Positions 5,533 to 46,225 of a stretch of 64,000 nt of DNA are shown piece by piece. Every line of letters begins with the position of its first letter. The first letter of the stretch is position 1. This DNA comes from Granulicella sp. dw_53 (GTDB taxonomy: Bacteria; Acidobacteriota; Terriglobia; Terriglobales; Acidobacteriaceae), in contig NZ_JAAVUR010000007.1 of the NCBI RefSeq assembly GCF_018449545.1, positions 124,001 to 188,000 of the forward strand, read 5' to 3'. The notes under the pieces were generated by a model, which was given only the letters and a program-made list of their open reading frames with translations, had not been told where the DNA came from and did not search any database. Both the position numbers and the translations under genes were made by a program.

Positions 5533-5663
5533 GGCAGTGTTGAGTATAAATGTCTTGCTGCCTGGACATCGATGTTCTGCCAGCATTTGCTGCAGCAGAT
5601 CTGCAGTGAAGGCGCTCAAGAGGAAGCTGTGAGCGCCTTTCACTGCGTGATTGTTGAAAGAGC

Positions 5664-6713
5664 CTAGGCGGCGGGTGCGACGTGGCCGCTGGGAGTAGAG
5701 AGGGAGATTTCCAGCTCTTCCGGGGTCATATCGATGGAGACGTCGGCGAAGAGGGGAGTGCTGAGGTAGCGCTCGCCGGTGTCGGGCAACATGCAGAGGA
5801 TGGTCGAGCCTTTGGGGGCTTCGGCGGCTACCTGGAGGGCTCCGGCGAAGGTGGCTCCGGAGCTGATGCCGACGAAGATGCCTTCCTGAGTGGCTAGTTC
5901 GCGGCTCCAGCGCATGGCCGCAGCGTTGTCGATGCGGAGGACCTGATCGACGTTGTGGGCGTCGACGGCGTCCTGGGTGAGCTTCGAGATGAAGTCCGGG
6001 CTCCAGCCCTGCTGGGGGTGCGATGCCCAGGCGGGATGGCTGGCGGAGGGAGAGCCATCGGGGTTGTGGGGCTGCTCGATGCCGCTGGAGAGCATGGGAG
6101 CGGCGTCGGGCTCGCAGACGACGATCTTGGTCTCGGGGCGCTTCTCGGCGAGGACGCGTGCGACGCCTTTGAGCGTGCCTCCGGTGCCGAAGCCGGTGAC
6201 CCAGTAGTCGAGCGGACCGCCTTCGAAGTCGCGGAGGATCTCCTGGGCTGTGGTCTTCGAGTGCATGTCGGCGTTGGCTTCGTTGCTGAACTGCTCGGTG
6301 CGGAACCAGCCGTTCTTCTCGGCGAGCTCATCGACCTTCTTGACCATGCCTGTGCCGCGCAGTCCGGCAGGAGTGAGGATGACCTTGGCTCCGAGGAAGC
6401 GCATGAGCTTGCGGCGCTCGATGGAGAAGGACTCGGCCATGGTGACGACGAGCGGATAGCCCTTCTGGGCGCAGACCATGGCGAGGCCGATGCCGGTGTT
6501 GCCGCTGGTGGCTTCGATGACGGTCTGGCCGGGCTTGAGTGCGCCGCTGCGTTCGGCGGCCTCGATGACTCCGAGGGCGAGGCGGTCCTTGACCGATCCG
6601 AGAGGGTTGAAGGCCTCTACTTTGACGTATAGCTCAATGCCTGCGGGGGCGAGTTTGTTGATACGGATAACCGGTGTATTGCCCACGGTGCCGAGGATGT
6701 TATCGAACTTCAT
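5664..6713 (-). CDS. cysK: Cysteine synthase A (O-acetylserine sulfhydrylase)
   Basis: PLP enzyme making L-cysteine from O-acetylserine and sulfide in the cytoplasm. The PLP lysine is Lys42 in NPLGSVKDR, and the phosphate-binding and substrate loops appear as TSGNTGIGLA and GTGGTLKGV. The 349-residue protein is longer than the usual 310 or so, mainly because of an insert rich in Ser, Pro and His near the middle (around PDGSPSASHPAW) and a C-terminal tail. The start is well supported by AAAGGAG seven bases or so ahead of the ATG. It sits 131 bp upstream of fabZ on the same strand; co-transcription is possible but not shown. Confidence 0.93.
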   Translation of the reverse strand: MKFDNILGTVGNTPVIRINKLAPAGIELYVKVEAFNPLGSVKDRLALGVIEAAERSGALKPGQTVIEATSGNTGIGLAMVCAQKGYPLVVTMAESFSIERRKLMRFLGAKVILTPAGLRGTGMVKKVDELAEKNGWFRTEQFSNEANADMHSKTTAQEILRDFEGGPLDYWVTGFGTGGTLKGVARVLAEKRPETKIVVCEPDAAPMLSSGIEQPHNPDGSPSASHPAWASHPQQGWSPDFISKLTQDAVDAHNVDQVLRIDNAAAMRWSRELATQEGIFVGISSGATFAGALQVAAEAPKGSTILCMLPDTGERYLSTPLFADVSIDMTPEELEISLSTPSGHVAPAA

Positions 6714-6863
6714 GAAGTGAATCTCCTTTTCTGGGCAAAGCCAGCTACGCACTCAAACAGCATCGCATCGAGCTCGCATCGCTCAAGGACATCATCTGGG
6801 TTTGTCGCGGCGGACGCAAGGTTCGGTGGGCCGTGGATTGGTTGGTTTTCTGTAGCTTCGGGC

Positions 6864-8108
6864 CTAAGTGCCGTGGTCGAATGAGGTTCGCAGCGCGGTC
6901 TGGTAGGCGTCGTAGACGCGGTGGAAGACGGCGTCCCAACTGCAGGTGAGGGCGTAGGCGCGGGCGTTTTCTCGCATTCGGTGGAGGAGGGAAGGGTCTT
7001 TTGCGAGAGTGGCGATGGCGGAGGTGAAGCCCTCGTCGGGGGCGATGAAGCCGGTTTCGCCTTGCTGGACGATGTACTTTGGACCGCCTCCTGGGGTGAC
7101 GATGGCGGGAACGCCGCTGGCGAGGGCTTCGAGGACGACGTTGCCGAAGGTGTCGGTGTGGGATGGGAAGACGAGGAGGTCCATGTTGGCGTAGGCGGTG
7201 GAGAGGGCTTCGCCGCGAAGGACGCCGGCGAACTCCGCTTTGGCGGCGGGAAGCGCGGCGCGGAGGGAGGCTTCTTCGCTGCCGTGGCCGATGATGAGGA
7301 ACTGGACGTCGTGGATGCCGAGGTCGGCGAGTTGCCGCTCGAGGAGGGGCAGGAGAGCGACGTTTTTCTCGATGGAGAGGCGGCCTACGTAGCCCAGGAC
7401 TAGCTTTCCCGAGGAGGTGGGACGGGTGCGGCGGGCGGGGGAGAAGAGGGCGGTGTCTACGCCGCGCTGCATGAGGTGGCAGGGACGATGCGTGGCGTGT
7501 TCGAGGAGGTCGCAGAGCTCGCGGTTGGGGGCGAAGAGGACCTTGGCGAGGCGGTAGAGATGGGCGGTGGTCCAGAGGGTTGCGGATTCGACGCGGGCTT
7601 CGGCGAGGGAGGCCTGGCGGGCGGGAAGGCGGGAGGTGAGCCAACTCAGGCGGCGCGCGGCGTACTCGTGGACGTTGGTGTGCCAGGAGGCGGCGAGGGG
7701 AACGCCAAGCTCGGAGGCGAACCAGGCTCCGAGGAGGCCGAGCTCGCTGGGTCCGGTGATGTGGATGATGTCGGGCTTGAAGCGGATGAGCTCGCGTTCG
7801 ACGCGAGTGAGGTGGCGGCCGAAGAGGGGGTCGAAGGCGAGGTCTTTTTCGATGCCGACGGAGGCGAAGCCGCGGGGGAGCTCGAGGGTCTGGACGGTGC
7901 TGGCGGGGTCGGGTTGGGGGTTGGTCTTGCCGGCGCGGACGCAGAGGAAGGGGAGGCGGTGGCGCTGGGCGTAGGCGACGAAGTTGCGGCTGGTGTGGGC
8001 TACGCCGTTGACCTCGTGGAAGGAGTCGGGGAAGTAGGCTACGCGGGGCGGACGCGCGGGGGCGCGGCGGGTGAGTTCCGGCTCCGGGTTGGTGGTCCCC
8101 TCCTGCAA
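6864..8108 (-). CDS. GT4-family glycosyltransferase
   Basis: Retaining GT-B glycosyltransferase, similar in layout to GDP-mannose-dependent or sulfoquinovosyl transferases; acceptor and donor unknown. The N-terminal domain begins RVAYFPDSFHEVNGVA, with the glycine and asparagine typical of the acceptor loop. The C-terminal domain shows LGYVGRLSIEKN and the donor-binding motif FGNVVLEALASGVPAIV. The start is TTG, preceded by AAAGGA at good spacing. The gene lies behind a long leader and a conserved palindromic element that recurs upstream of the DUF721 gene near 49.5 kb. A long open frame on the same strand in another phase is a GC-content shadow. Confidence 0.88.
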   Translation of the reverse strand: MQEGTTNPEPELTRRAPARPPRVAYFPDSFHEVNGVAHTSRNFVAYAQRHRLPFLCVRAGKTNPQPDPASTVQTLELPRGFASVGIEKDLAFDPLFGRHLTRVERELIRFKPDIIHITGPSELGLLGAWFASELGVPLAASWHTNVHEYAARRLSWLTSRLPARQASLAEARVESATLWTTAHLYRLAKVLFAPNRELCDLLEHATHRPCHLMQRGVDTALFSPARRTRPTSSGKLVLGYVGRLSIEKNVALLPLLERQLADLGIHDVQFLIIGHGSEEASLRAALPAAKAEFAGVLRGEALSTAYANMDLLVFPSHTDTFGNVVLEALASGVPAIVTPGGGPKYIVQQGETGFIAPDEGFTSAIATLAKDPSLLHRMRENARAYALTCSWDAVFHRVYDAYQTALRTSFDHGT

Positions 8109-8232
8109 TGCTCTTCCTTTCTGGGGGGTGCCCCCCCTTGCCTGTATCCAACCCGTTTGGTTTGAGCGAGATAGCGGCTTGGTGGGCCGCTAAGTTCGTC
8201 CAAACAAATGGGTTACGTCCAAATATGCGCAA

Positions 8233-8296
8233 GCAAATGGCTTGTCTTAGCAAACAACTTGCCTTAGCAAACGGCTTGTCTTAGAAAACAACTTAG
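8233..8296. repeat. 17-bp tandem repeat, about 3.7 units
   Basis: Three full units of 17 bp (8233-8249, 8250-8266, 8267-8283) with the pattern GCAAAYRRCTTGYCTTA, then a partial unit GAAAACAACTTAG. The array lies inside the leader ahead of the GT4 gene and is absent from the related leader at 49.5 kb, so it expanded in this copy only. Confidence 0.75.
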
Positions 8297-33285: not shown

Positions 33286-33360
33286 TGGTGCGAGCCGCTG
33301 TGGTGCGCGCTAAATTTAGTGCGAACCAAGTTGGTGCGAACTACAAGTTAGTGCGAACTA
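33286..33360. repeat. 15-bp tandem repeat, about five units
   Basis: Units of 15 bp around the core TTGGTGCGAACTA, degenerate at the left end (TGGTGCGAGCCGCTG) and clearer to the right. The last unit reads into the MFS gene, so its final codons (ISSH and stop) are made of repeat sequence. The core GGTGCGAAC also occurs in the tandem repeat inside the S9 peptidase gene. Confidence 0.7.
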
Positions 33361-34622
33361 ATAGCCAGTTCGACTGCGCTTGCTGCGGGAGGGGAGAGGC
33401 GGCGGGCTCCCCAGAGCAGTAACAGGCCAATGAATAAGTAGATGGCGGCGGTAGCGGAGATGCAGGCGCTCATGCCGTAGCGCTGAGCCGCGACGGCGAT
33501 GGCGATGGGGGCGAAGCCGCCTCCGAGCCAGCCCATGGAGTTGAGGAGTCCGGCGGCGGTTCCGCGACGGGCTGTGGGGACGACGTCGTAGAGGCCCGCG
33601 AAGAGATTCGCGTCGTAGAGGCCCTTGAAGTAGCCGAAGCCGACCATCGCGAGGATGAGCCAGGGGATCGAGGTGGTCCAACCGGTGAGGAAGAGGAAGG
33701 GCACTCCGCAGAGCAGGCCGAAGGATTGGGTGAGAAGGCGGCCGCCGTAGATCTTTTTGACGAGGGTATCGGCTAGCAGGCCGCCGGAGAGGACGCCGAG
33801 GACAGAGGCGATCTGGAGGTAGGCGGTGCCGTTGAGTCCGGCCATGGAGAGGCTCATGTGGAACTTCTGGAAGAGGAAGGTGGGCATCCAGGTGAGGAAG
33901 ACGACCGCTACGAAGTTGGCTCCGATGAAGACCGCGATTAGGAGCAGGACCATGGGATTGCGCAGGACCTCGCGGAGGCCTACGAGGAGGTTTCCGCTGG
34001 TGGGCCGAAGGGCCTGGGAGGCTGGAGCATCGGACATGCCGCGGGTGGGTTCCTGGAGGAGAGTCCAGAGGATGAGGCCGAGGAGGATTCCGAGGCCGCC
34101 GAAGAGTAGGAAGCTGGAGCGCCAGCCGTAGAACTGTCCGACGAAGCCGGAGACGGCTCCTCCGGCGATGCTGCCGGCGTAGACGGCGGACTGGTGGAGC
34201 GACATCGCCCGGGAGCGGGTGGCGGAGGAGTGGTAGTCGCCGATGAGGGACATGGCGGCGGGGAAGTAGAAGGCTTCACCCAGACCGCCGAGGGCTCGGC
34301 AGAGGACGAGCTGGGCGTAGCTGTGGGTGAGGGCCGTGGCAGCGGTAATGAAGGACCAGAAGATGAGGGCGCTGAGGACGAGGGTCTTGCGGGGGAGGCG
34401 GTCGCAGAGCCATCCGGCGAAGGGGCCGAAGAGGGCGTACATCCACATGAAGGAGGCTCCGACGATGCCGAGCTGGATGTCGGAGAGCTGGAGTTGCTGC
34501 TTGATGAGGGGGAAGACGGAGAAGATGGCCTGACGGTCGGCGTAGTTGAAGAAGCAGACGAACCAGAGCATGGCGACGACGAGCCATTTGTAGGAGCTTC
34601 GCCGCGTGATGGCTTCGGTCAT
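33348..34622 (-). CDS. MFS transporter, anion:cation symporter-like
   Basis: Twelve-helix inner-membrane transporter of 424 residues. The first-helix pattern FFNYADRQAIFSVFPLIK and the loop GWLCDRLPRKTLVL match the ACS branch of MFS, whose members (ExuT, GudP, DgoT types) import sugar acids with protons. Its start overlaps the stop of the GntR gene (ATGA), so the pair is one operon, facing the sialidase-aldolase-isomerase-kinase genes. I infer that it imports the acidic sugar that those enzymes consume. Its last codons come from a 15-bp tandem repeat. Confidence 0.87.
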   Translation of the reverse strand: MTEAITRRSSYKWLVVAMLWFVCFFNYADRQAIFSVFPLIKQQLQLSDIQLGIVGASFMWMYALFGPFAGWLCDRLPRKTLVLSALIFWSFITAATALTHSYAQLVLCRALGGLGEAFYFPAAMSLIGDYHSSATRSRAMSLHQSAVYAGSIAGGAVSGFVGQFYGWRSSFLLFGGLGILLGLILWTLLQEPTRGMSDAPASQALRPTSGNLLVGLREVLRNPMVLLLIAVFIGANFVAVVFLTWMPTFLFQKFHMSLSMAGLNGTAYLQIASVLGVLSGGLLADTLVKKIYGGRLLTQSFGLLCGVPFLFLTGWTTSIPWLILAMVGFGYFKGLYDANLFAGLYDVVPTARRGTAAGLLNSMGWLGGGFAPIAIAVAAQRYGMSACISATAAIYLFIGLLLLWGARRLSPPAASAVELAISSH

Positions 34623-35434
34623 GATTGGGGCGTCATCTTATGGATGTCGAAGAAGGTGGGGACGGCGTGGCGGAGGGAGGTCTCGCGCTTCCACTGGTCG
34701 TAGGCGTTGAGGCGCTCGCGCTGGCTGGCCTGGATGTGTTCGACGATGGCGGTCATGGCGGCTTCGCTGTGCTGCTGGACGACGGCGTCGAGGATGCGCT
34801 GATGGTACTCGTAGATGCTCTGGAGGGCGGCGCGGTCGTGGCCGCCGCGATGGATGGCGAAGATGCTGATGAGGAGGCGGGTGTCGTTGATGATCTTCTG
34901 GACGCGGGAGTTCTGAGCCATGCTCATAAGGAGAGCGTGGAAGCCGAGGTCGCAGGCGATGAAGCGCTCCATGCCGGACTGGTCGAGGTGGGTGTTGCCG
35001 GAGGTGTCGAGCTCTCGCTGGAGGGTGAGGATCTCGTCGACGAGGTGCTGGAGGCGGTCCTGATCGGCGGGGCGCATGGTGAGGCGGGAGACCTTGGCGA
35101 CGGCGTAGACCTCCAGGGCCTCGCGGAGCTCGTAGAGCTCGATGATGTCTTCGCGGGTGAGCTGGGCGACGACCATACCACCACCCGGACTCTGGTGGAG
35201 GAGGCCCTCGGCGGCGAGCTGGTTCATGGCCTCACGGATGGGGGTGCGGCTGCTGCCGAGCTCTTTGGCGAGGAGAAGCTCGGAGATGCCGCCGCCGGCG
35301 GGGAGGGTTCCCTGGGCGATGAGCTGCTGGATGTGGAGGTAGGCCTTTTCGCGGATGGAGAGGTCGCGTGCGCCGTGGTGCTGCCTGGGTCTGCGGCTCA
35401 TTCGCCCAGCATACTCGGATTGGAGTTTTGGCAT
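34619..35434 (-). CDS. GntR-family regulator with FCD ligand domain
   Basis: Transcription factor of 271 residues. The winged helix-turn-helix (about 20-95) includes AYLHIQQLIAQGTLPAG and LAKELGSSRTPIREAMNQL. The FCD all-helical domain (about 105-245) has the acidic and histidine ligand positions around HLDQSGMERFIACDLGFH. FCD domains commonly sense carboxylic acids and sugar acids through a metal ion. I start at the ATG giving MPKLQSEY, with AGAGG upstream; the frame is open further back. Together with the MFS gene it is divergent from the four-gene catabolic operon, which it probably controls along with itself. Confidence 0.9.
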   Translation of the reverse strand: MPKLQSEYAGRMSRRPRQHHGARDLSIREKAYLHIQQLIAQGTLPAGGGISELLLAKELGSSRTPIREAMNQLAAEGLLHQSPGGGMVVAQLTREDIIELYELREALEVYAVAKVSRLTMRPADQDRLQHLVDEILTLQRELDTSGNTHLDQSGMERFIACDLGFHALLMSMAQNSRVQKIINDTRLLISIFAIHRGGHDRAALQSIYEYHQRILDAVVQQHSEAAMTAIVEHIQASQRERLNAYDQWKRETSLRHAVPTFFDIHKMTPQS

Positions 35435-35516
35435 GGCTGTCGACCTCTTTCCGGGTTGGCCTTCCGTGTCGATTCTCAGGATTGACGAGGATGAATGGCT
35501 GACTCTGCGAACCTTT

Positions 35517-35545
35517 ATATCTTCGATTGCGAGATATGTCGACAT
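35517..35545. promoter_or_regulatory. Two palindromes between divergent operons, probable GntR operator
   Basis: ATATCT (35517-35522) and AGATAT (35532-35537) form an inverted repeat. It overlaps the perfect 10-bp palindrome ATGTCGACAT (35536-35545), whose core TGTnnACA resembles operators of VanR/UxuR-type FCD regulators. The block is 48 bp before the sialidase-like gene and 83 bp before the regulator gene, so one protein bound here could silence both directions. Confidence 0.5.
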
Positions 35546-35592
35546 CAAGACGACATGGAGGGTATAGTCGCTGTGCAGTCATACGGAGGCTT

Positions 35593-36717
35593 ATGCGGTC
35601 GGTTCGATCCGGGTGGACGTTCGGGATTTGTCTTGCGATTTGTTTGGGGGTGATGGCGGCCTCGGGGTTGGCGGTGCGAGCGGCGGAGGCGAAGCCGGTT
35701 CGGGAGCAGATCTTCGCGCCGGGTACGGCTCCCTTCCCTTCAAGCCATGCTTCGACGGTGGTGGAGTTGAAGGGTGGTGGGCTGATGTCGGCGTGGTTTG
35801 GAGGCACGGCGGAGGGCAAGCCGGATGTGGCGATCTGGAGTTCACGGAGGACGGCTGGAGGGTGGTCGGCTCCGGCGGAGCTGGCGCGGGAGGCGGAGGT
35901 GCCATGCTGGAATCCGGTGCTGTTCCATACGAAGGATGGGCGACTCTGGCTGTACTACAAGTTCGGGCCTAGCCCAAGCAACTGGACGGCGGCGAGGAAG
36001 GTCAGCGCGGATGAAGGGGTGACCTGGAGTGCGGCGGAGTATCTGCCGGCAGGGCTGGTGGGGCCGGTGCGGGCGAAGCCGCTGGTGCTGGAGGATGGGA
36101 CGATCGTGAGTGGGTCGTCGGTGGAGGCGTACCGGTCGTGGGCGGTGTGGATCGAGCGGAGCACGGATGGAGGGAAGACGTGGGTGAAGATCGGGCCGAT
36201 CGTTCCGCCGATCGATGCCGCGAAGGAGGACCTGAGCCGAGGTCCGGCCCCGGTGCTGCCGGGTACGACGAAGCCGAAGGAATCGGCTGTAACGCGGGGG
36301 ATCATTCAGCCTTCGGTGGTGTCGTTGGGAGGAAAGCATCTGCGGCTGTATGCGCGGTCGACTGCGCTGACGCAGCGGGTGACGGTGGCGGACTCGTACG
36401 ACAACGGAGTGACATGGACGCAGGGGCGGGTGCTGGAGGTGCAGAATCCGAACTCGGGGATCGATGCGGTGGCGCTGCGGGATGGGCGGGTGGTGCTGAT
36501 CTACAACAACACGACGAGCGGGCGGACTCCACTGAATCTGGCGGTGTCGACGGACGGGGAGCACTTCAAGATGTTCGCCACGCTGGAGGAGGAGCCGGGG
36601 GAGTACTCGTACCCGGCGCTGATCCAGACGGCGAACGGCGATCTGGAGATGACGTATACGTGGAACCGGAAGATTATCGAGCACGTTCATCTTCCGCTGG
36701 CGGATGTACCGAAGTAG
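35593..36717 (+). CDS. Exported sialidase-fold (BNR) glycosidase
   Basis: Six-bladed beta-propeller protein of 374 residues with an N-terminal signal peptide ending near residue 31 (VRA-AEA). Three Asp-box motifs are visible: SADEGVTW (138-145), STDGGKTW (190-197) and SYDNGVTW (268-275), plus a degenerate fourth at STDGEHF. The C-terminal YPALIQTANGDLEMTYTW is typical of the BNR_2 branch. This fold includes GH33 enzymes that cut sialic acid, KDN or Kdo from glycans. The start has GGAGG just ahead. It heads an operon with aldolase, isomerase and kinase genes. I infer release of a 2-keto-3-deoxy sugar acid, with Kdo the best candidate. Confidence 0.75.
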   Translation: MRSVRSGWTFGICLAICLGVMAASGLAVRAAEAKPVREQIFAPGTAPFPSSHASTVVELKGGGLMSAWFGGTAEGKPDVAIWSSRRTAGGWSAPAELAREAEVPCWNPVLFHTKDGRLWLYYKFGPSPSNWTAARKVSADEGVTWSAAEYLPAGLVGPVRAKPLVLEDGTIVSGSSVEAYRSWAVWIERSTDGGKTWVKIGPIVPPIDAAKEDLSRGPAPVLPGTTKPKESAVTRGIIQPSVVSLGGKHLRLYARSTALTQRVTVADSYDNGVTWTQGRVLEVQNPNSGIDAVALRDGRVVLIYNNTTSGRTPLNLAVSTDGEHFKMFATLEEEPGEYSYPALIQTANGDLEMTYTWNRKIIEHVHLPLADVPK

Positions 36718-36745
36718 GAGCTTCATTCCGAAAGAGGGAGATCGC

Positions 36746-37666
36746 ATGGCAGAGAAGCTGGTGACAGGGGTGTATGTGGCGGTGCTGACGCCACGGAGCG
36801 CGGATGGCAGCATCGACGCGGCGGGTCTGGGGGCTGTGATCCGGTTCCTGATGGGGAAGGGGATCTCGTCGTTTGCGGTGAACGGGGCGACGGGGGAGCT
36901 GTGCCTGACTACTCCGGATGAGTTGCGGATGATGCTGACGGTGGTGCAGGAGGCGAGTGCGGGGCGGGCGGAGATTCTGTGTGGGGTGGGAGCGCCGGGG
37001 ACTGCAAGGGCGAAGGAGTTGGCGGTGACTGCACGGAGCGCCAGCTACCACGGTGCGGTGAAGGGGCTGCTGCTGCCGATGCCGTACTTCTTTCCGTATC
37101 AGCAGGAGGATCTGGAGTTGTTTTGCAGGGAGGTTGCGGCGAGTACGGAGCTGCCGATTCTGCTGTACAACCTGCCGCAGTTCACCTCGGGGCTGGCGAA
37201 GGAGACGGTGCGGAGGCTGATTACAGAGGTGGCGAATATTGTCGGGATCAAGGATTCGAGCGGGTCGCTGGAGATTCTGCGCGACCTGACGGAGCATGGG
37301 GTGGATGCCTGCCGGCTTGTGGGGAATGACACTGTTTACGCTCAGGCGTTGCAGGAGGGGGTCTGCGACGGGATCGTGTCGGGGGTGGCTTGCCCGTTGC
37401 CGGAGTTGATCCAGGCGTTGTGGCGGGAGGCCGCACGTACGGAGTCAGAGGAGTTTGCGAGTGCTTCGCGGTTGCTGGATGAGTTTATTGCGCAGTTGAA
37501 TGCGTTTCCTACGCCCTGGGGCCTAAAGTGGACGGCGGAGGCTCGAGGCATTGTGCCGGCTACGTTCTCGCAGCCGGTGACGCAGCATCGACGCGAGCAG
37601 GGACGTGCGGTTGTGGCATGGATGCAGGAGTGGCTGCCCGGCGCGATCGAGGCGACGACCCGGTAG
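36746..37666 (+). CDS. DHDPS/NAL-superfamily aldolase, proposed Kdo aldolase
   Basis: Class I pyruvate-dependent aldolase of 306 residues. The Schiff-base lysine is Lys169 in IVGIKDSSG, the tyrosine is Tyr141 in LYNLPQF and the carboxylate-binding loop is NGATGE (46-51). In true dihydrodipicolinate synthase the loop is GTTGE, whose first threonine is part of the proton relay; here it is alanine, which argues against DapA. It lies 28 bp after the hydrolase gene with GGGAG before the ATG. The isomerase and kinase downstream are pentose-type enzymes, so cleavage of an eight-carbon 3-deoxy-octulosonate to pyruvate and D-arabinose fits best. Confidence 0.85.
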   Translation: MAEKLVTGVYVAVLTPRSADGSIDAAGLGAVIRFLMGKGISSFAVNGATGELCLTTPDELRMMLTVVQEASAGRAEILCGVGAPGTARAKELAVTARSASYHGAVKGLLLPMPYFFPYQQEDLELFCREVAASTELPILLYNLPQFTSGLAKETVRRLITEVANIVGIKDSSGSLEILRDLTEHGVDACRLVGNDTVYAQALQEGVCDGIVSGVACPLPELIQALWREAARTESEEFASASRLLDEFIAQLNAFPTPWGLKWTAEARGIVPATFSQPVTQHRREQGRAVVAWMQEWLPGAIEATTR

Positions 37667-37689
37667 GACAAGCGATAGGAGAGGATTCG

Positions 37690-39321
37690 ATGGAAGAGAA
37701 GTTGGTGGCGGGAGAGAAGGATGTGTTTCTGGTGACGAGCGGAGACCTGCGGGTGGCGGCGAACCAGGTGTGCTGGCCGGCGCAGCGGGAGTTGGAGGAG
37801 CGGCTGACGGCGGCGTTTGCCGAGCAAGGTTTCAGGCTGGTGCGGGCTCATGCTTATGACGAGGTGGAGGGGCATGGGTTCATCTCGTCGCAAAGGATGG
37901 GGATGGATGTGTTCATGCGGATTCCCAAGGGCGTGAGGCTGGTGTTCGCGACGGCGGCGTGGCAGTACAGCCACCATGTGCTGCCGGGACTGCGCAGCCA
38001 TGAAGGGCCGATGCTTACGGTGGCGAACTGGTCGGGGCAGTGGCCGGGGCTGGTGGGACTGCTGAATCTGAATGGCTCCTTGACGAAGGCGGGGGTGGAG
38101 TTTTCTTCGATCTGGAGCAGGGACTTTACGGATGCGTTCTTTCGCGATGGGGTGGTGGAGTGGCTGAAGGATGGGACGATCTCGCATGATGTGTCGCAGG
38201 TGCATGTGCTGGAGGCGGGGAGGATCCCGGCGGAGTCGGCGGCGCTGGGCCAGAGGCTGGCAGAGGAGTTGAAGCATCGCAAGGCGATTCTGGGGATCTT
38301 CGATGAAGGGTGCATGGGGATGTATAACGCCATCGTTGACGATGAGTTGCTGAACCCGGCGGGCATCTATAAGGAGCGGCTGAGCCAGTCGGCGTTGGTG
38401 GCGAAGATGCGGACGGTGGCGGAGGATGAGGCTGCCGCGGTCTATCAGTGGCTGGTGGAGAAGGGGGTTACGTTAAAGCTGGGCAAGGACCCTGCCACGG
38501 AGTTGACGCTGGCGCAGGTGCTGGAGCAGTGCAGGATGTATATCGCGGCGGTGCGGATTGCGAATGAGTTTGGCTGCGATGCGATTGGGATTCAGTATCA
38601 GCAGGGGCTGAAGGATATGGCCGCGGCGTCGGATCTGGTGGAGGGGCTGCTGAATAATGCGGAGCGGCCTCCGGTGTTTGCAGAGGGGACGCAGACGGAG
38701 TTGTATGCGGGTGGGCCGCTGGTTCACTTCAACGAGGTGGATGAGTGTGCGGGGGTGGATGGGCTGGTGACGAATCGCTGCTGGAGCGCGCTGGGGATCG
38801 ATCCTTCGACGACGCTGCATGATGTCAGGTGGGGCGAGCACTACAAGGGCGAGGGGTTGGATGAGTTTGTGTGGCTGCTACAGATCTCGGGTGCGGCTCC
38901 GGCGAACCACTTCGTCGGCGGGTATGCGGGGGCTACGAGCGAGCGGCAGCCTGCGATGTACTTTCCGCTGGGAGGCGGTTCGTTGAAGGGTGTGAGCCGG
39001 CCGGGAGAGATCGTCTGGAGCAGGGTGTTTGTGGAGGGTGGGGCGCTGCATGTCGATCTGGGGCGAGGGACGGTGGTTTCGCTGCCTACGGCGGAGACGG
39101 AGCGACGCTGGAGGGAGACGACGTACCAGTGGCCGATTATGAATGCTGTCTTTCATGGCGTGAGCCGGGACCAGTTCATGGCGCGGCATCGGGCGAACCA
39201 TGTGAACGTCGCGTATGCGCCTACGGCTGAGATGGCGGATAAGGCGCTGGCGACCAAGGCGGCGATGATGTCGGCGCTGGGGCTGACGGTGCATCTTTGT
39301 GGGGAGACTGCTATTCGCTAA
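37690..39321 (+). CDS. L-fucose/L-arabinose isomerase-family protein, proposed D-arabinose isomerase
   Basis: Large aldose-ketose isomerase of 543 residues in the FucI/AraA superfamily. Recognisable parts are FDEGCMGMYNAI (metal-ligand glutamate region), FGCDAIGIQYQQGLKD and the C-terminal QWPIMNAVFHGVSRDQFMAR with RANHVNVAY, where the last histidine is a usual metal ligand. E. coli FucI is known to accept D-arabinose. The start has GGAGAGG upstream and is 23 bp after the aldolase stop. It is somewhat shorter than FucI (about 590) and longer than AraA (about 500). Substrate assignment is inference. Confidence 0.82.
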   Translation: MEEKLVAGEKDVFLVTSGDLRVAANQVCWPAQRELEERLTAAFAEQGFRLVRAHAYDEVEGHGFISSQRMGMDVFMRIPKGVRLVFATAAWQYSHHVLPGLRSHEGPMLTVANWSGQWPGLVGLLNLNGSLTKAGVEFSSIWSRDFTDAFFRDGVVEWLKDGTISHDVSQVHVLEAGRIPAESAALGQRLAEELKHRKAILGIFDEGCMGMYNAIVDDELLNPAGIYKERLSQSALVAKMRTVAEDEAAAVYQWLVEKGVTLKLGKDPATELTLAQVLEQCRMYIAAVRIANEFGCDAIGIQYQQGLKDMAAASDLVEGLLNNAERPPVFAEGTQTELYAGGPLVHFNEVDECAGVDGLVTNRCWSALGIDPSTTLHDVRWGEHYKGEGLDEFVWLLQISGAAPANHFVGGYAGATSERQPAMYFPLGGGSLKGVSRPGEIVWSRVFVEGGALHVDLGRGTVVSLPTAETERRWRETTYQWPIMNAVFHGVSRDQFMARHRANHVNVAYAPTAEMADKALATKAAMMSALGLTVHLCGETAIR

Positions 39322-39379
39322 GTGCTCCAGAGCTGGCGGCGTGGCGTGCGGGTCTTTTTAAGATTTTAAGAGAGACTGG

Positions 39380-41014
39380 ATGGCAGTGTCGCGGGAGCTG
39401 TGCGACTGGGAGAAGACATTGAGCGTAGTGGCGGGAGTTGACTTCGGGACGCTGAGCGTCCGTATCTCGATCTTCGATAAAGAGCGTGGGAAGCTGGGTT
39501 CGGCTACGGCGGAGTATGCGCTGAAGCGGTCGGCGACCGATCCGGACTTCGCAACACAGAGCCATGATGAGCAGATGGCGGCGCTGGCGCGGGCGATGCG
39601 CGAGGCGGTGCAGGTGAGCGGGATCTCGGGCGACTCGGTTGCTGCGATTGCCTTGGATACGACGGGGTCGAGCGTGATTCCGGTGGGCGAGGGGATGGTC
39701 CCGCTGGGGGACTACTACCTGTGGTGCGACCATCGGGCGGCGGGTGAGGCGGCAGAGATTACGCGTGCGGCGAAGAGCTATGACGGAGGCGCGGGGTTCG
39801 AGGGGATCGAGTGGTGCGGCGGGGTGTACTCGTCGGAGTGGGGGTGGTCCAAGCTGCTGCATTGGTTGCGGCATAATCCGGCAGAGCGTGGGAGGTTTGT
39901 AACGGCGCTGGAGCACTGCGACATGGTGGCGGCGACGTTGTGTGGGATTACCGATCCTGCGGAGCTGCCGCGGAGCATCTGCGCGATGGGGCATAAGTGG
40001 ATGTGGAACGAGCGCTGGGGTGGGCTGCCTCCGGAGGACTTTCTGGTAAGCGTCGATCCGCTGCTGGCGGGGGTTCGGGAGAAGATTGCGGGGCGGTACC
40101 AGACGTCGGATAAGCTGGCGGGACATCTGAGCGCGGAGTGGGCAGAGAGGCTTGGGTTGAAGGCGGGGATTCCGATTCCTACGGGGGCGTTCGATGCGCA
40201 CTGGGATGCGGTGGGAGCGAATATACGGCTGGGCGATGTGGTGAATGTGATCGGGACTTCGACCTGCATCATCGGGCTGAGCGCGGAGCAGAGCCTGGTG
40301 CCGGGGGTGTGTGGGGTGGTGCCGGGATCGGTGTATCCGGATAAGGTGGGGATCGAGGCAGGGCTGTCGGCGGTGGGGGATATCTTCAGCGCGATTGCGA
40401 CGCGGGCGGGGAGCACGGTGCAGGCTCTGTCGGAGGCGACGAAGGACTATCGCGCGGGGCAGACGGGGCTGCTGCGGCTGACCTGGGATAACGGCGACAG
40501 GACGGTGCTGGTGAATCCGGAGCTGGGTGGGGTGACGCTGGGTTGGAACCTGATGCATACCGCCGCAGACGAGCTGTTCGCAGCGGTGGAAGGGACGGCG
40601 CTGCATACGAGGATCATTCTGGAGCGGATGCAGGAGCATGGCACGGTGATCAACCGCGTGATCAATGGCGGGGGGATTCCGAAGCGGAATGCGGGGCTGA
40701 ACCAGATCTATGCGAATGCGTTGAACAAACCGGTGCTGGTGCCGGATGGCGATGTGACGAGCCTGGGGTCGGTGATCCTTGCGTTTCTGGCGGCAGGGGA
40801 TTTTGCCACGGTGGAAGAGGCGCAGGATGCGCTTTGTCCGGCGTATCGGGTGTTCGAGCCGCAGGCTGATGCGGTGGGGCAGTATGACCGGCTGTATTCG
40901 CTCTACCGGGATGTTTACTTTGGACTTGGGAGCCCGGATGCGGCGCCGGTGGCGCTTGGTCGCGTTCTGCCTGAGTTGCGGGCTATTCGCAGGGTTGCTT
41001 CAGGGGCTGTTTAG
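39380..41014 (+). CDS. FGGY-family ribulokinase
   Basis: Carbohydrate kinase of 544 residues close to AraB-type ribulokinases. The phosphate-1 loop is VAGVDFGTLSVRISIFD. The ribulokinase-specific stretches SEWGWSKLLHWLR and GAFDAHWDAVGANI with VIGTSTCIIG are present, and the ATP-binding region has INGGGIPKRNAGLNQIYAN. AraB-type kinases are known to phosphorylate both D- and L-ribulose. It is the last gene of the operon, 58 bp after the isomerase gene. Its product would be ribulose 5-phosphate, which feeds the pentose phosphate pathway. The convergent FkbM gene begins 3 bp after its stop. Confidence 0.88.
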   Translation: MAVSRELCDWEKTLSVVAGVDFGTLSVRISIFDKERGKLGSATAEYALKRSATDPDFATQSHDEQMAALARAMREAVQVSGISGDSVAAIALDTTGSSVIPVGEGMVPLGDYYLWCDHRAAGEAAEITRAAKSYDGGAGFEGIEWCGGVYSSEWGWSKLLHWLRHNPAERGRFVTALEHCDMVAATLCGITDPAELPRSICAMGHKWMWNERWGGLPPEDFLVSVDPLLAGVREKIAGRYQTSDKLAGHLSAEWAERLGLKAGIPIPTGAFDAHWDAVGANIRLGDVVNVIGTSTCIIGLSAEQSLVPGVCGVVPGSVYPDKVGIEAGLSAVGDIFSAIATRAGSTVQALSEATKDYRAGQTGLLRLTWDNGDRTVLVNPELGGVTLGWNLMHTAADELFAAVEGTALHTRIILERMQEHGTVINRVINGGGIPKRNAGLNQIYANALNKPVLVPDGDVTSLGSVILAFLAAGDFATVEEAQDALCPAYRVFEPQADAVGQYDRLYSLYRDVYFGLGSPDAAPVALGRVLPELRAIRRVASGAV

Positions 41015-41017
41015 GAT

Positions 41018-41848
41018 CTACCAGGCGTGGATCATCTGAACGCGGAGAACTCCTCCGGAGTAGAGAAGGCCTTTTCCCTCGACGCTATAGCCTAGTGACT
41101 TCAGCAGTGTGTACATGGTGTCGAAGTCTGTGTCGCTGTGGTAGGTGGTGACTGCCAGCTTGGGGTGGAACTCTTTCAGGAATTTTTTCCCGCCGGCGAA
41201 GATTGCGGGTTCGGCTCCTTCGGCGTCGCACTTGATAAAGGTTGGCTTGAACTCCAGTTTTTCGACTGCTTCGTCCAGAGTTACTACGGGGAGTTCGTAG
41301 GCACCTGGAACAGGCTCGGAGCAGATGCGGCTGCCGGCGGGGTTCTTCAGGTCTTCCGCAAAGTATGCCGTGGATGGCTCGCCTCCGAAGAGACAGTTCA
41401 GGATTTGCGGGCTTGGCTCATTGCGAATCTGGAAGAGCTGAGTCATGAGAGCGCACATGGAACGGGACGGCTCGACGGCGATGACGTGTTTGCACTTCGC
41501 GGTTACGAAGGCTGAGAAAGCTCCTTCGCAAGCGCCGATATCCAGGACGACGTCGTCTGGGCCGATCTGGGTGGAACCGTACAGGTATTGATGGGGGTGC
41601 TCTGGCGTCAGGATCTCTGAGAGTATCTGCAGAAACCCCGACCTTGGAGCATTGCCAGGCCAGAGGAACTTCTGATTCCCGATCGTGGCCTGCAAGAAGC
41701 TGCCGACGTCGCTAAAGGAGTAAGGGGCTGACTCGCGAAACTTTCGGTCGAACTTGCTTCCAGTGTGGAACAGCCACTGCTTGGACACGTTGCTGGCAGG
41801 TCCTTGAGAGCTTAGTAGATTCGTTATAGATCTCAGCTTCTCTATCAT
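41018..41848 (-). CDS. FkbM-family methyltransferase
   Basis: SAM-dependent methyltransferase of 276 residues. Motif I is VVLDIGACEGAFSAF, with VIAVEPSRSM and the FkbM hallmark FIKCDAEGAEPAIFAGG. An N-terminal region of about 85 residues precedes the catalytic domain. It is convergent with the ribulokinase gene and lies upstream of the rhamnose locus on the other strand, so it may methylate a polysaccharide sugar. It shares only family motifs with the FkbM protein at 18.5 kb. Confidence 0.87.
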   Translation of the reverse strand: MIEKLRSITNLLSSQGPASNVSKQWLFHTGSKFDRKFRESAPYSFSDVGSFLQATIGNQKFLWPGNAPRSGFLQILSEILTPEHPHQYLYGSTQIGPDDVVLDIGACEGAFSAFVTAKCKHVIAVEPSRSMCALMTQLFQIRNEPSPQILNCLFGGEPSTAYFAEDLKNPAGSRICSEPVPGAYELPVVTLDEAVEKLEFKPTFIKCDAEGAEPAIFAGGKKFLKEFHPKLAVTTYHSDTDFDTMYTLLKSLGYSVEGKGLLYSGGVLRVQMIHAW

Positions 41849-42525: not shown

Positions 42526-43641
42526 GTGACGAAGGCGGTTATGACGGAAAACATACTTGTAACGGGCGGGGCGGGATTCATTGGGTCCAATTTTGTGTTG
42601 GACTGGATCGCGGCTGGGCTCGGCCCGGTGGTGAATCTAGATGCTCTGACCTATGCGGGAAATCCGGAGAATTTGGCGACTTTGGAGGGCGATCCGGCCT
42701 ATACGTTCGTGCATGGCAACATCTGCGACGCCGCGCTGGTGGAGCGTCTGCTCGCGGAGTACCGGCCCAGGGCAGTGGTGCACTTCGCGGCGGAGAGTCA
42801 TGTGGACCGGTCGATTGTCGGACCGGAGGCCTTCCTTAAGACGAATATCGATGGGACGTTTACGCTGCTTCGTGCAGCGCGCAGCTACTATGACGGGTTG
42901 GTTGGGGAAGAGCGCGAGCGGTTCCGGTTTCTGCATGTGTCGACCGATGAGGTCTATGGGACGTTGACGCCAGAGGCTCCTGCCTTCCATGAGGAGACGC
43001 CCTATGCGCCGAACTCGCCCTATGCGGCTTCGAAGGCTGCGAGCGATCACCTGGTGCGGGCCTGGGTGCATACCTATGGGCTGCCGGCCGTTGTGACGAA
43101 CTGCTCCAACAACTACGGGCCATACCAGTTTCCAGAGAAGCTGATCCCGCTGATGATCTCGAATGCCCTGGAGGGCAAGGGACTGCCGGTGTACGGAGAT
43201 GGAAAGCAGGTTCGGGACTGGCTCTACGTCGGCGACCATGCCAGTGCGTTGCGTGTGGTGCTGGAGCGCGGCCGGATCGGCGAGACCTACAACGTGGGCG
43301 GCGGAAACCAGCGGACCAATCTTGAGGTTGTGACGACGCTATGTGAGCTGCTGGATGAGTTAGTACCGCAGTCGAAGTTTCGTCCGCACCAGCAGTTGGT
43401 GAAGTACGTCACCGACCGTCCAGGCCATGACCGGCGGTATGCCATCGATGCTCGCAAGCTGGAGGGCGAGCTTGGGTGGCGCGCGCAGGAGAGCTTCGAG
43501 ACAGGCTTGAGGAAGACGGTGGAGTGGTATCTCGCCAATGCAGCCTGGGTGGCGGACGTGACGAGCGGCGCATATCAGCAGTGGTTGACCAAGAACTATG
43601 CCGCGCGAACGACCTTGGCGGCGGGAGAGGGAGCACGATGA
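42526..43641 (+). CDS. rmlB: dTDP-glucose 4,6-dehydratase
   Basis: Second enzyme of dTDP-L-rhamnose synthesis. The extended SDR begins [15 protein letters not shown], with the catalytic pattern STDEVYGTL (Thr-Asp-Glu) and YAASKAASD (Tyr-x3-Lys). The length of 371 residues is normal. The start is GTG with AGGGAG six bases upstream; an ATG five codons later (MTENILV) is the alternative. The stop overlaps the rmlA start as ATGA, which shows translational coupling. Confidence 0.95.
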
Positions 43642-44513
43642 AGGGAATTATTCTGGCCGGAGGCTCGGGAACACGGCTGCATCCGGTGACACAGGCGGTG
43701 AGCAAGCAGTTGCTGCCGGTGTACGACAAGCCGATGATCTACTACCCACTGTCGGTGCTGATGCTGGCGGGGATACAGGAGATCCTGATCATCTCGACGC
43801 CTGAAGATACGCCCCGATTCGAGCAGTTGCTAGGTACGGGGAAGCAGTGGGGTCTGTCGCTTCAGTACGCCGTGCAGCCCTCTCCGGACGGCCTGGCGCA
43901 GGCGTTTCTGATTGGCAAGGATTTTCTTGCGGGCGAGGGATGCTGTCTGGTGCTGGGAGACAACATCTTCTATGGTCATGACTTTGCCAAGGCGCTTCGC
44001 GCAGCTTCGGAGAGCGGCGAGGGCGCGACCGTCTTTGCGTATCCGGTGCTGGATCCAGAGCGGTATGGAGTGGTGGAGTTCGATGCGGAGCGTCGTGCGA
44101 TCTCGATCGAGGAGAAGCCCACTAAGCCGAAGTCGCGCTATGCAGTGACCGGAGTCTATTTCTACGATGCGCAGGTGGTTAGCGTGGCGGAGAGTCTTAA
44201 GCCCTCTCCACGAGGGGAATTGGAGATCACGGACGTCAATAAGTGGTATCTGGAGCGCGGACAGTTGAGGACAGAGCTGCTGGGACGCGGGATCGCCTGG
44301 CTGGATACGGGGACGCATGACTCGCTGCTGGAGGCTTCCATGTTCATCCAGACGATCGAAAAGAGACAGGGGCTGAAGGTGGCTTGTCCGGAGGAGATCG
44401 CGTTTCGCCTCGGCTATATCAGCGCGGACGAGTTGCGGGCGCTGGCGGGCAAGATAGCCAAGAGCACCTACGGACAGTATCTGCAGCGCCTGCTGGAAGA
44501 GACGGTCTATTGA
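43638..44513 (+). CDS. rmlA: Glucose-1-phosphate thymidylyltransferase
   Basis: First enzyme of dTDP-L-rhamnose synthesis, making dTDP-glucose. The 291-residue protein has the nucleotidyltransferase signature [14 protein letters not shown], the substrate segment [15 protein letters not shown] and [10 protein letters not shown]. The ATG overlaps the rmlB stop. A longer open frame reaching back into rmlB is read-through and is rejected. The stop overlaps the rmlD start as TGATG. Confidence 0.96.
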
Positions 44514-45442
44514 TGGCAGCAGCGATGACGGAACGTATCTTGTTGACCGGAGCCTCCGGGCAGGTGGGCGGCGAACTCGTCGGAACGCTCGCTCCCTTGG
44601 GAGAGGTCGTCGCGCCGGGACGAGGAGTGGTGGACCTTGCGGACTCTGAGGGAGACTTCCGGTCGCTGCGGGAGATGATCCAGACGATAAGGCCTCGCTG
44701 GATCGTCAATCCGGCCGCCTATACTGCGGTGGATAAAGCAGAGAGCGAACCGGAGGTCGCGTATGCGATCAATCGCGATGCCGTAAGGGCGATCGGAGAA
44801 GAGGCGCAGAAGATCGGCGCCAGCGTCCTCCACTTCTCGACGGACTATGTGTTCGATGGCCTGGGCAGCGAGCCCTACCTGGAGACGGATACTCCCGGGC
44901 CTATGAGCGTCTACGGGAAGAGCAAGCTCGCCGGGGAGGTAGCGCTTGCCGAGAGCGGTGCGGCTCACATCGTCTTTCGGACCAGTTGGGTCTACGGGGG
45001 ACGAAGCAAGAACTTTCTGCTGACGATTCTGAAGCTGGCACGGGAACGGGAGACGGTGCGGGTGGTTGGAGATCAATATGGCGCTCCAACGTGGAGCAGG
45101 GATCTGGCGGCGGTGACCGCAGCTGTGATGCAGCGTTGTGAGGCGGATGCGGGGAAGGGATCTCTGAGCGACACGGTGGCTCGTGCAGGTGGGATTTATC
45201 ACGCAAGTGGAGCTGGGGTCACGACTTGGCATGGATTTGCTGCGGAGGCCGTCCGGCAGCAGAGAGAACGTGAGCCTGGAGTAAAACTGGCCGAGATTGA
45301 GGCCATCACCACGGCAGAATACCCTACGCCCGCGAGACGGCCCGAGAATTCGCGGTTAAATTGCAATAAGCTGGCCGATCGCTTCGGGTGGAAGATGATG
45401 GCCTGGCAGGATTCTTTACATAAAGTGCTAGCGGAGATCTGA
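44513..45442 (+). CDS. rmlD: dTDP-4-dehydrorhamnose reductase
   Basis: Final enzyme of dTDP-L-rhamnose synthesis. The 309-residue reductase has the cofactor motif LLTGASGQVGGEL, FSTDYVFDG and the active-site YGKSKLAGE (Tyr-x3-Lys). The ATG overlaps the rmlA stop; an ATG four codons later (MTERILL) is also possible. It converges with rmlC, an unusual split of the four-gene pathway, and a hairpin lies between the two stops. Confidence 0.95.
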   Translation: MAAAMTERILLTGASGQVGGELVGTLAPLGEVVAPGRGVVDLADSEGDFRSLREMIQTIRPRWIVNPAAYTAVDKAESEPEVAYAINRDAVRAIGEEAQKIGASVLHFSTDYVFDGLGSEPYLETDTPGPMSVYGKSKLAGEVALAESGAAHIVFRTSWVYGGRSKNFLLTILKLARERETVRVVGDQYGAPTWSRDLAAVTAAVMQRCEADAGKGSLSDTVARAGGIYHASGAGVTTWHGFAAEAVRQQREREPGVKLAEIEAITTAEYPTPARRPENSRLNCNKLADRFGWKMMAWQDSLHKVLAEI

Positions 45443-45473
45443 GGGAGAATGACTCCGATTTCTTACTCCGAGG

Positions 45474-45493
45474 CTCCCTCCCTTTGGAGGGAG
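45474..45493. terminator. Hairpin between convergent rmlD and rmlC
   Basis: Perfect 8-bp stem CTCCCTCC/GGAGGGAG with loop CTTT. Neither side has a proper T-run, so it is a weak terminator candidate, but its place between two convergent stops favours that role. Confidence 0.45.
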
Positions 45494-45496
45494 AGA

Positions 45497-46060
45497 TTAT
45501 GCGTCGAGTGGCGGGAGGTCGGCGGCGGTGAAGAGGGTGCCGACGGCATCCTTGGGGCTGACGGATGGAGTGAGTCCGTCCAGGGCCTCCAGAGGCCAGG
45601 AGATGTTGAGGGTGGGGTCGTTCCAAAGGATGCAGCGCTCCCCGGGTGGGTGGTAGAGGTCGGTCGTCTTGTAGAGGACTTCGGCGGTGTCGGAGAGGAC
45701 GAGGAAGCCGTGGGCGAAGCCTTCGGGGATCCAGAGGAGTTGGAGAGGATCTGACTTGAGGTGAAAACCTTCCCATTTGCCGAAGTCGGGGGAGCTGGGC
45801 CGGAGGTCGACGGCGACGTCCCAGATGTGACCGGAGAGGACGCGGACGAGCTTTCCCTGGGGTTTACCGAGCTGGTAGTGAAGGCCGCGGAGGACGCCTT
45901 TGGTCGAGAAGGACTGGTTATCCTGGACGAAATGGGTCGGGAGGTGTTGATCTGCGAATTTCACTTGGTTGTAAACTTCCGCAAACCAACCGCGACTATC
46001 TCCGAATCGTTGGGGTTCCACTAATTGGAGATCTCGGATGGTGGTGTTCTTTACCTTCAT
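45497..46060 (-). CDS. rmlC: dTDP-4-dehydrorhamnose 3,5-epimerase
   Basis: Third enzyme of dTDP-L-rhamnose synthesis, a cupin epimerase of 187 residues. The motif QDNQSFSTKGVLRGLHYQ carries the catalytic histidine. IPEGFAHGF and the later Tyr/Asp region VLYKTTDLYHPPGE complete the family pattern. I start at the ATG giving MKVKNTTIRD; frame open upstream lacks support. It is the only rml gene on the minus strand. Confidence 0.95.
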   Translation of the reverse strand: MKVKNTTIRDLQLVEPQRFGDSRGWFAEVYNQVKFADQHLPTHFVQDNQSFSTKGVLRGLHYQLGKPQGKLVRVLSGHIWDVAVDLRPSSPDFGKWEGFHLKSDPLQLLWIPEGFAHGFLVLSDTAEVLYKTTDLYHPPGERCILWNDPTLNISWPLEALDGLTPSVSPKDAVGTLFTAADLPPLDA

Positions 46061-46225
46061 AGAGATAGTGTAGCGAATCCGTCCGGAATTCCTGTATTCT
46101 CCTCCCTGGTAAGAAGTCCCATTAGTCACTTTGGTACTGAAAGCTCGAAGAAATGGTTGTCTGTGAAAGGTTAAGGTTACCTAAGGAATACAAACGGGTA
46201 AACTAATCGGGTTGAGCAACTGTGG

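Follow-up and report, generated by a model that had tools for sequence, protein, structure and literature searches.

Which sugar is used by a divergent cluster of six genes that places a GntR/FCD regulator and an MFS transporter opposite a sialidase-fold hydrolase, an aldolase, a fucose-type isomerase and a ribulokinase? The cluster lies in a 64,000-nucleotide stretch of Granulicella sp. dw_53 (contig NZ_JAAVUR010000007.1, positions 124,001 to 188,000), hereafter the window. Its genome is designated G000; other G-numbers denote genomes, and L-numbers denote fetched loci. Our answer is that the locus is probably an operon for utilisation of 3-deoxy-D-manno-octulosonate (Kdo), an eight-carbon acid sugar that most Gram-negative bacteria carry in their endotoxin and land plants in their pectin. 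We infer every substrate from the observed families, folds, key residues, co-occurrence and shared palindrome. A sequence-only reading of the window had proposed the same sugar, and its proposal was supported by the association of isomerase, kinase and GH172, by co-occurrence across genomes, by natural fusions of GH78 with the hydrolase and by the palindrome.

The six open reading frames (ORFs) were confirmed at the strands and in the order previously described, and Pfam and NCBIfam matches to the window sequence gave the families, so the divergent layout stands (Table 1). As read from the sequence, the probable start of the hydrolase is ATG 35593, where the N-terminus resembles a signal peptide, the aldolase and isomerase likely start at ATG 36746 and ATG 37690, and the regulator probably starts at 35434. 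Given the starts of the regulator and the hydrolase, the divergent promoter region would be about 158 bp long. The intergenic gaps of the plus-strand operon are 28, 23 and 58 bp, and the transporter and regulator genes overlap by 4 bp. All six families were found together again in L031 (the metagenome-assembled genome Acidobacteriaceae RYN_15), in the gene order of the window, and in genome G502, in a different order, so these genes are not neighbours by chance.

The four plus-strand genes follow one another as the proposed steps do, in agreement with the earlier suggestion that gene order is pathway order. The exported sialidase-fold enzyme would cut terminal alpha-linked Kdo off a glycan in the periplasm, and the MFS protein would import the free sugar. 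Retro-aldol cleavage of Kdo by the aldolase would then give pyruvate and D-arabinose. The FucI-type isomerase would convert D-arabinose to D-ribulose, and the AraB-type kinase would yield D-ribulose 5-phosphate, which feeds into the pentose phosphate pathway. Repression of the operon by the GntR/FCD protein would take place at TGTCGACA, with release by Kdo or a product of it being probable.

The hydrolase matched Pfam BNR_2 at 1.9e-77, and its profile matched the sialidase 1eur at 2.3e-14. An AlphaFold2 model, built from a 5-sequence alignment with a predicted local distance difference test (pLDDT) score of 78.8, aligned with the sialidase 2ber over the whole domain (Z 34.3, root-mean-square deviation 2.6, 307 aligned residues). 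The sialidase beta-propeller fold thus bears out the sialidase-fold hydrolase claimed from the sequence. The aldolase matched Pfam DHDPS at 4.8e-42, and Lys169 and Tyr141, which we take to be the Schiff-base lysine and the catalytic tyrosine, did not vary across the 24 sequences aligned, among them E. coli NanA and YagE. The invariant residues and the family match agree with the DHDPS/N-acetylneuraminate lyase (NAL) type assigned before.

Sialidases free sialic acid in other bacteria, and a sialidase fold, a DHDPS/NAL aldolase and a GntR regulator that weakly matches the NanR model (40 bits vs a cut-off of 260) could together suggest a nan-like operon for the catabolism of sialic acid or of 2-keto-3-deoxynononic acid (KDN). 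Like the E. coli nan operon, the locus holds an acid-sugar importer, a DHDPS-superfamily aldolase and a regulator of the GntR family, to which NanR belongs. However, after the aldolase it has an aldose isomerase and a ribulokinase in place of NanE and NanK, neither of which is among the six genes, and the aldolase did not reach the NCBIfam nanA equivalog cut-off (71 vs 382 bits). N-acetylmannosamine or mannose would need no isomerase and ribulokinase; sialic acid, KDN, 3-deoxy-lyxo-heptulosaric acid (Dha) and aldonic acids all fail to give an aldose that calls for a FucI-type isomerase with a ribulokinase. A nan-like function is therefore hardly credible, and sialic acid and KDN are the poorer fit that the sequence-only reading took them for. 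Kdo chemistry is within reach of the aldolase superfamily, because NALs form Kdo from D-arabinose and pyruvate, albeit slowly (PMC4016182).

For the transporter, the best NCBIfam match was TIGR00893, the ACS-type D-galactonate model, at 183 bits and under the cut-off of 395; of the previous ACS-type MFS assignment, the MFS_1 family is secure and the subtype rests below its cut-off. Both domains of the regulator exceeded their Pfam cut-offs (GntR 3.4e-14, 52.7 vs 27 bits; FCD 2.3e-15, 57.6 vs 24.3 bits), which bears out the GntR/FCD identification.

The isomerase is a divergent branch, since its scores were just below the Pfam cut-offs for Fucose_iso_N1 (2.6e-06, 27.8 vs 28 bits) and Fucose_iso_C (4.6e-06, 26.8 vs 29.3 bits). 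Its profile gave no significant match to the single E. coli FucI and AraA sequences, and phmmer found no meaningful match in the PDB. The structure model (pLDDT 93.7, 58-sequence alignment) had L-fucose isomerases as top matches (Z up to 37.9, 6k1f), a Z of 36.8 with the D-arabinose isomerase of Bacillus pallidus (3a9r), and L-arabinose isomerases behind both groups (Z 29.1 to 32.5); these fold matches span residues ~180-543, and the N-terminal ~180 residues lie outside them. E349, D378 and H504 were invariant in the 58 sequences and resemble the FucI metal ligands by motif only; they may be the counterparts of FucI E337, D361 and H528. For the FucI/AraA-type assignment made earlier, the fold held and the Pfam cut-offs were narrowly missed. 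The kinase contains the N- and C-terminal FGGY domains and reached the ribulokinase model PRK04123 (503 bits vs a cut-off of 428), in line with the AraB type proposed for it, and did not reach a second ribulokinase model, TIGR01234 (299 vs 583 bits). Its orthologue in L031 is 89% identical.

The neighbourhoods of isomerase relatives point to the sugar that the pair handles. The sample comprised the 80 best of at least 592 loci, and its counts therefore describe close relatives only; the closest named relatives among them are labelled Acidobacteriaceae. In L112 (genome G049), genes for a sugar transporter and a DUF2961/GH172 protein come after an isomerase and a kinase 70% and 69% identical to those of the window, and L113 (G217) contains an isomerase plus a GH172-type gene. 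The fetched 18 kb of L112 contained no aldolase, that of G049 being located elsewhere in the genome. Searching the 80 isomerase loci with a profile built from the GH172 proteins of L112 and L113 turned up GH172 genes in 6, and in 5 of these the distance was no more than 4 kb. The GH172 family includes exo-D-arabinofuranosidases, and D-arabinose is plausible for the pair because the close pair in G049 adjoins GH172 with no aldolase nearby. In Dysgonomonas gadei on D-arabinan, a predicted fucose isomerase, in PUL42, was the most abundant carbohydrate-active enzyme (PMC10115798), and a D-arabinan locus with a putative isomerase and kinase for D-arabinose has been described in Microbacterium arabinogalactanolyticum (PMC10509167). 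From the GH172 neighbours and these two papers, D-arabinose is our best guess for the substrate of the isomerase-kinase pair. Unlike in the D-arabinan loci, D-arabinose in the window would come from an aldolase acting on an ulosonic acid, and no GH172 is among the six genes. As a side observation, G217, which is not one of the 250 family genomes surveyed below, carries a broken isomerase remnant in its aldolase region (G217:C1:606116-606532, L114/L029) and an intact copy elsewhere beside a GH172-type gene.

The sequence-only reading had suggested surveying genomes for co-occurrence of the six families. We used 250 family genomes and defined an aldolase orthologue by at least 200 bits (the next scores being ~100), a hydrolase orthologue by >350 bits and an isomerase by E <= 0.001. 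Aldolase, isomerase and hydrolase were present in 16, 54 and 22 genomes, respectively. The isomerase occurred in 15 of the 16 aldolase-bearing genomes versus 39 of the 234 aldolase-free ones (Fisher p 2.5e-10), and the association was also seen within four genera (Cochran-Mantel-Haenszel p 1.1e-5). The hydrolase was found in 10/16 versus 12/234 genomes (p 1.8e-8), and among aldolase-free genomes isomerase and hydrolase were not associated (3 with both, p 0.43). Aldolase and isomerase adjoin in 10 of the 16 genomes and are split at a contig end in an eleventh (G195); they are 26 kb apart in G462, and the isomerase is elsewhere in the genome in G415, G049 and G329. A DHDPS-superfamily gene was present in the fetched stretch of 11 of the 80 isomerase loci, including, beyond the family, those of Bacteroidota (L072, L086, L091, L096, L101 and L105) and Trueperaceae (L068 and L089). 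Seven aligned DHDPS relatives from these loci, L091 being outside the alignment, had 15-29% identity to the window aldolase. The survey thus upheld the link of aldolase with isomerase and, in L031 and G502, the full set of six; the fetched stretches of nine loci gave no kinase match.

Regulation provides a further tie. The palindrome ATGTCGACAT at 35536 is inside the divergent promoter and occurs nowhere else in the window. In 19 aldolase loci, whose related genomes are not independent, TGTCGACA cores numbered 35 in 352,509 bp, and 33 of the 35 were inside promoter windows totalling 37,136 bp; these windows ran from -350 to +120 around longest-ORF starts and may overlap coding sequence. One site in L059, from the cultured relative Bryocella elongata, which carries aldolase, isomerase, regulator and transporter, falls within the isomerase gene. 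The windows hit belong to aldolase, hydrolase, regulator, transporter, kinase, receptor or ~830-aa protein genes. Promoter sites were present in 17 of the 19 loci, in 16 of them by the aldolase operon or the regulator/transporter gene; in L160 (G462) the site is before the receptor only. Sites stand upstream of transporter relatives in L117, L118 and L158, and the site in L156 is shared with the kinase. The aldolase loci L154 (G415) and L157 (G049) had no promoter site, and neither did the isomerase-kinase-GH172 locus of G049 or the isomerase-GH172 locus of G217. Where the hydrolase is unlinked in aldolase-bearing genomes, TTTGTCGACAAA lies 95-115 bp upstream of it in 3 of 7 (G281, G241 and G480, all of one genus), and TGTCGACA was wholly absent from the hydrolase regions of 10 aldolase-free genomes (fetched out of 12; G341 and G312 are outside this count). 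One palindrome thus appears to tie together hydrolase, aldolase, isomerase, transporter and regulator, plus the kinase in G502, and we infer that the GntR/FCD protein binds it. A strict pattern, WWTGTCGACAWW, was also scanned in 18 genomes and gave 61 forward matches versus 11 for the reversed control, at 0 to 7 per genome; G094, which has no aldolase, had 4.

In relatives, TGTCGACA also precedes the genes for a TonB-type receptor and for a protein of ~830 aa. G241 and G281 have an unlinked receptor/~830-aa gene pair with a site between both genes; 2 of 20 further WWTGTCGACAWW sites that we fetched are these (L188 and L190), and 3 of the 20 are upstream of other TonB-receptor-like genes. TGTCGACA sites were noticed ~300-500 bp upstream of TonB-receptor-like genes at L199 site 3394, L201 site 3332 and L193 site 3495 (G225, G455 and G480). 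Two members of the ~830-aa family gave no above-cut-off Pfam match, one of them having a sub-cut-off GH67N match, and against the PDB the protein had only weak matches to alpha-glucuronidase N-domains; from its sequence it is a candidate for a new glycosidase family. At a threshold of at least 180 bits, 20 of the 250 genomes encode it, comprising 10/16 aldolase-bearing and 10/234 aldolase-free ones. By hand count, 15 of the 16 aldolase genomes have the hydrolase and/or the ~830-aa protein and 5 have both, so the two are not mutually exclusive; the sole exception, G415, is 77% complete.

The receptor and the ~830-aa putative glycosidase would probably import and trim a Kdo-bearing oligosaccharide in these relatives. 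It is a tentative proposal, to which we give slightly less than an even chance, that Acidobacteriaceae possess a regulon for Kdo scavenging, in which one GntR/FCD operator (TGTCGACA) would govern the receptor, an alpha-Kdo hydrolase, the ~830-aa glycosidase of a new family, an ACS-type Kdo transporter, a new subgroup of Kdo aldolases, a divergent D-arabinose isomerase family and a D-ribulokinase, with the hydrolase and the ~830-aa protein as alternative ways of freeing the substrate. The sequence-only reading described the six genes correctly and overlooked the palindrome, the TonB-type receptor and the ~830-aa partner. Beside the ~830-aa gene in L114, L120, L122 and L158 there are ORFs of ~276 aa for an HpcH/HpaI-family aldolase (Pfam tested in L120); our guess is that this aldolase serves the related acid Dha.

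Where would the Kdo come from? The glycan had been suggested to be lipopolysaccharide (LPS) or the pectin rhamnogalacturonan II (RG-II). RG-II has Kdo and Dha as the acids of its chains C and D, and alpha-1,5-rhamnose terminates chain C (PMC12282258). In Bacteroidota, hydrolase relatives share loci with GH141, GH2, apiosidase-like or BT_1020-like homologues. In L086 (a Flavobacterium metagenome-assembled genome), one ORF at 4452-8243 joins a GH78-type alpha-L-rhamnosidase to a BNR_2 domain 36% identical to the window hydrolase, near SSF, isomerase, DHDPS and GH141 genes and a second rhamnosidase-like gene. The genes for isomerase, hydrolase (40%), DHDPS and an SSF symporter are consecutive in L105 (Cyclobacterium xiamenense), and in L101 (Hymenobacter) SSF-like, DHDPS-like and isomerase genes are near apiosidase-like and BT_1020-like genes. 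A search with the L086 hydrolase domain in 198 genomes of the class of G523 gave matches in 27 genomes at E <= 0.001, 11 of them strong (at least 190 bits). Among the 14 regions fetched from these 11 genomes, a GH78 homologue was fused (L244 and L245, Table 1) or within 4 kb in 8; DHDPS and SSF homologues stood beside the hydrolase in 2 (L242, which is the same place as L105, and L249), and 4 had neither GH78 nor DHDPS/SSF homologues. The strong places G626:C23:247322 and G523:C8:125745 are outside the 14.

Around the hydrolases of aldolase-free Acidobacteria, 3 of 10 regions (L170, L173 and L184) share one neighbour gene, which corresponds to a GH78-type protein in L178 of aldolase-bearing G049, and an SSF-type gene is in the hydrolase neighbourhood in L170, L173, L178 and L185. 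L178 also encodes, at 1532-4120 on the minus strand and near the G049 hydrolase gene, a protein that combines FGE-sulfatase and BNR_2 domains. The BT_1020 propeller family PF24067 was over its cut-off in 5 of 24 genomes, comprising 5/5 Bacteroidota and 0/19 Acidobacteria, with a sub-threshold match in the genome of L031; the genome of L096 is outside the 24. RG-II is the likely Kdo source for Bacteroidota, as the GH78 fusions suggest. For the window organism, the PF24067 marker being absent from G000, the source may be RG-II, LPS or another glycan.

Several findings weigh against the Kdo reading. Besides this absence, the hydrolase, when aligned to the Micromonospora sialidase, has a blade register in conflict with the structural range, and we make no claim on the Arg triad, the Tyr/Glu pair or the Asp acid/base because of it. 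The hydrolase also occurs in the 12 aldolase-free genomes, and no site precedes 4 of the 7 hydrolases that are unlinked in aldolase-bearing genomes (G179, G049, G225 and G455, the last with the upstream side only, L202). A different 3-deoxy-2-ulosonic acid, such as a derivative or epimer of Kdo or an acid new to science, might instead give the FucI-type aldose: the genes constrain the product, an aldose accepted by a FucI-type enzyme, and not the exact acid, and the sialidase-like active site aligned in a conflicting register. Yet Kdo is, as far as is known, the common natural ulosonic acid that yields D-arabinose, and fusions of GH78 with the hydrolase in RG-II-type loci fit a Rha-Kdo linkage, so that another acid is unlikely.

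The Bacteroidota aldolases that adjoin the isomerase have just 15-24% identity to the window aldolase, and G474 has the aldolase without the isomerase. The latter genome, and the isomerase and kinase that occur beside GH172 with no aldolase nearby, would suit a co-regulated locus of two unrelated functions, a D-arabinan branch (isomerase and kinase) and a keto-acid branch (aldolase and transporter). Such a division is highly improbable in view of the 15/16 co-occurrence, the adjacency in 10 of 16 genomes plus the contig-end split, and the DHDPS-family genes near the isomerase in Bacteroidota and Trueperaceae too.

No kinase match was found in the fetched stretches of L059, L115, L116, L117, L118, L120, L155, L158 and L162, the nine aldolase-isomerase loci that remain beyond the window, L031 and G502, and kinase homologues (E <= 0.001) are present in 185 of the 250 genomes. 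The kinase is therefore the least specific part, and we rejected it as a marker because its homologues are too widespread. Close to the operon, L115, L116 and L155 carry a gene for a GH51-type arabinofuranosidase, and L059 and L161 one for a GH29-type fucosidase; such neighbours could hint at L-arabinose or L-fucose. An operon for one of these sugars, with the aldolase in a parallel sugar-acid branch, would also accord with the FucI-type fold and the AraB-type ribulokinase match. Nevertheless, the six genes include no fuculose-phosphate aldolase, ribulose-phosphate epimerase or sugar-acid dehydratase, the kinase is far under the L-fuculokinase cut-off (42 vs 471 bits), the close isomerase-kinase pair adjoins GH172 elsewhere, and the palindrome joins the sialidase-like hydrolase to the aldolase-isomerase operon. 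We consider an L-sugar operon quite unlikely. Finally, 13 of the 20 further WWTGTCGACAWW sites, including both from G000, are inside ORFs, and this pattern misses the window's own site; the TGTCGACA core is thus informative by its position and not by its presence.

Downstream of the Kdo locus, an FkbM methyltransferase gene (41018-41848) adjoins ORFs at 42526-46129 that by eye resemble a cluster for dTDP-rhamnose synthesis (RmlB/A/D/C-like).

Table 1. Genes and sites of the proposed Kdo locus in the window, and related features in other loci
Feature	Position	Strand	Remark
MFS transporter, ACS/D-galactonate type, proposed Kdo importer	33348..34622	-	MFS_1 6.9e-67
GntR/FCD regulator	34619..35434	-	longest ORF to 35548; ATG 35434 likelier, read from sequence
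palindrome ATGTCGACAT, proposed GntR operator	35536..35545	.	single copy of the 10-mer in the window
exported sialidase-fold hydrolase (BNR_2), proposed alpha-Kdo hydrolase	35593..36717	+	ORF from 35527
DHDPS/NAL-superfamily aldolase, proposed Kdo aldolase	36746..37666	+	ORF from 36704
FucI-type isomerase, proposed D-arabinose to D-ribulose	37690..39321	+	longest ORF from GTG 37528
AraB-type FGGY ribulokinase, proposed D-ribulose to D-ribulose 5-phosphate	39380..41014	+	PRK04123 match
GH78 + BNR_2 natural fusions	L244:6571; L245:6290		Bacteroidota
~830-aa protein family	L059:13714-16203	-	often near TonB-dependent-receptor-like gene and TGTCGACA
~830-aa protein family	L120:1157-3673	-	often near TonB-dependent-receptor-like gene and TGTCGACA
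~830-aa protein family	L188:3350-5746	+	often near TonB-dependent-receptor-like gene and TGTCGACA
~830-aa protein family	L190:3615-6029	+	often near TonB-dependent-receptor-like gene and TGTCGACA

Among known systems, the Bacteroidota RG-II loci share with the Kdo locus the hydrolase relatives, there fused to or near GH78, and in L086 and L101 the isomerase, DHDPS and SSF genes as well; they differ in that the six window genes include no other RG-II enzyme and G000 lacks PF24067. The Kdo hydrolase KdoH1/H2 of Helicobacter pylori, likened here by description, takes Kdo off a glycolipid as the window hydrolase would off a glycan, whereas its role is in lipid A remodelling and not in nutrition (PMC3245313). 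No bacterial gene cluster for Kdo catabolism was among the matches listed in the open-access literature covered, so that novelty is provisional.

If the Kdo reading is true, the locus would supply genes for each step from bound Kdo to central metabolism. The palindrome and the aldolase-isomerase pair would be a handle for finding similar loci, in which sialidase-like and DHDPS-like proteins could be renamed. The locus would also offer a testable Kdo hydrolase for chain C of RG-II and point the way to a new glycosidase family.

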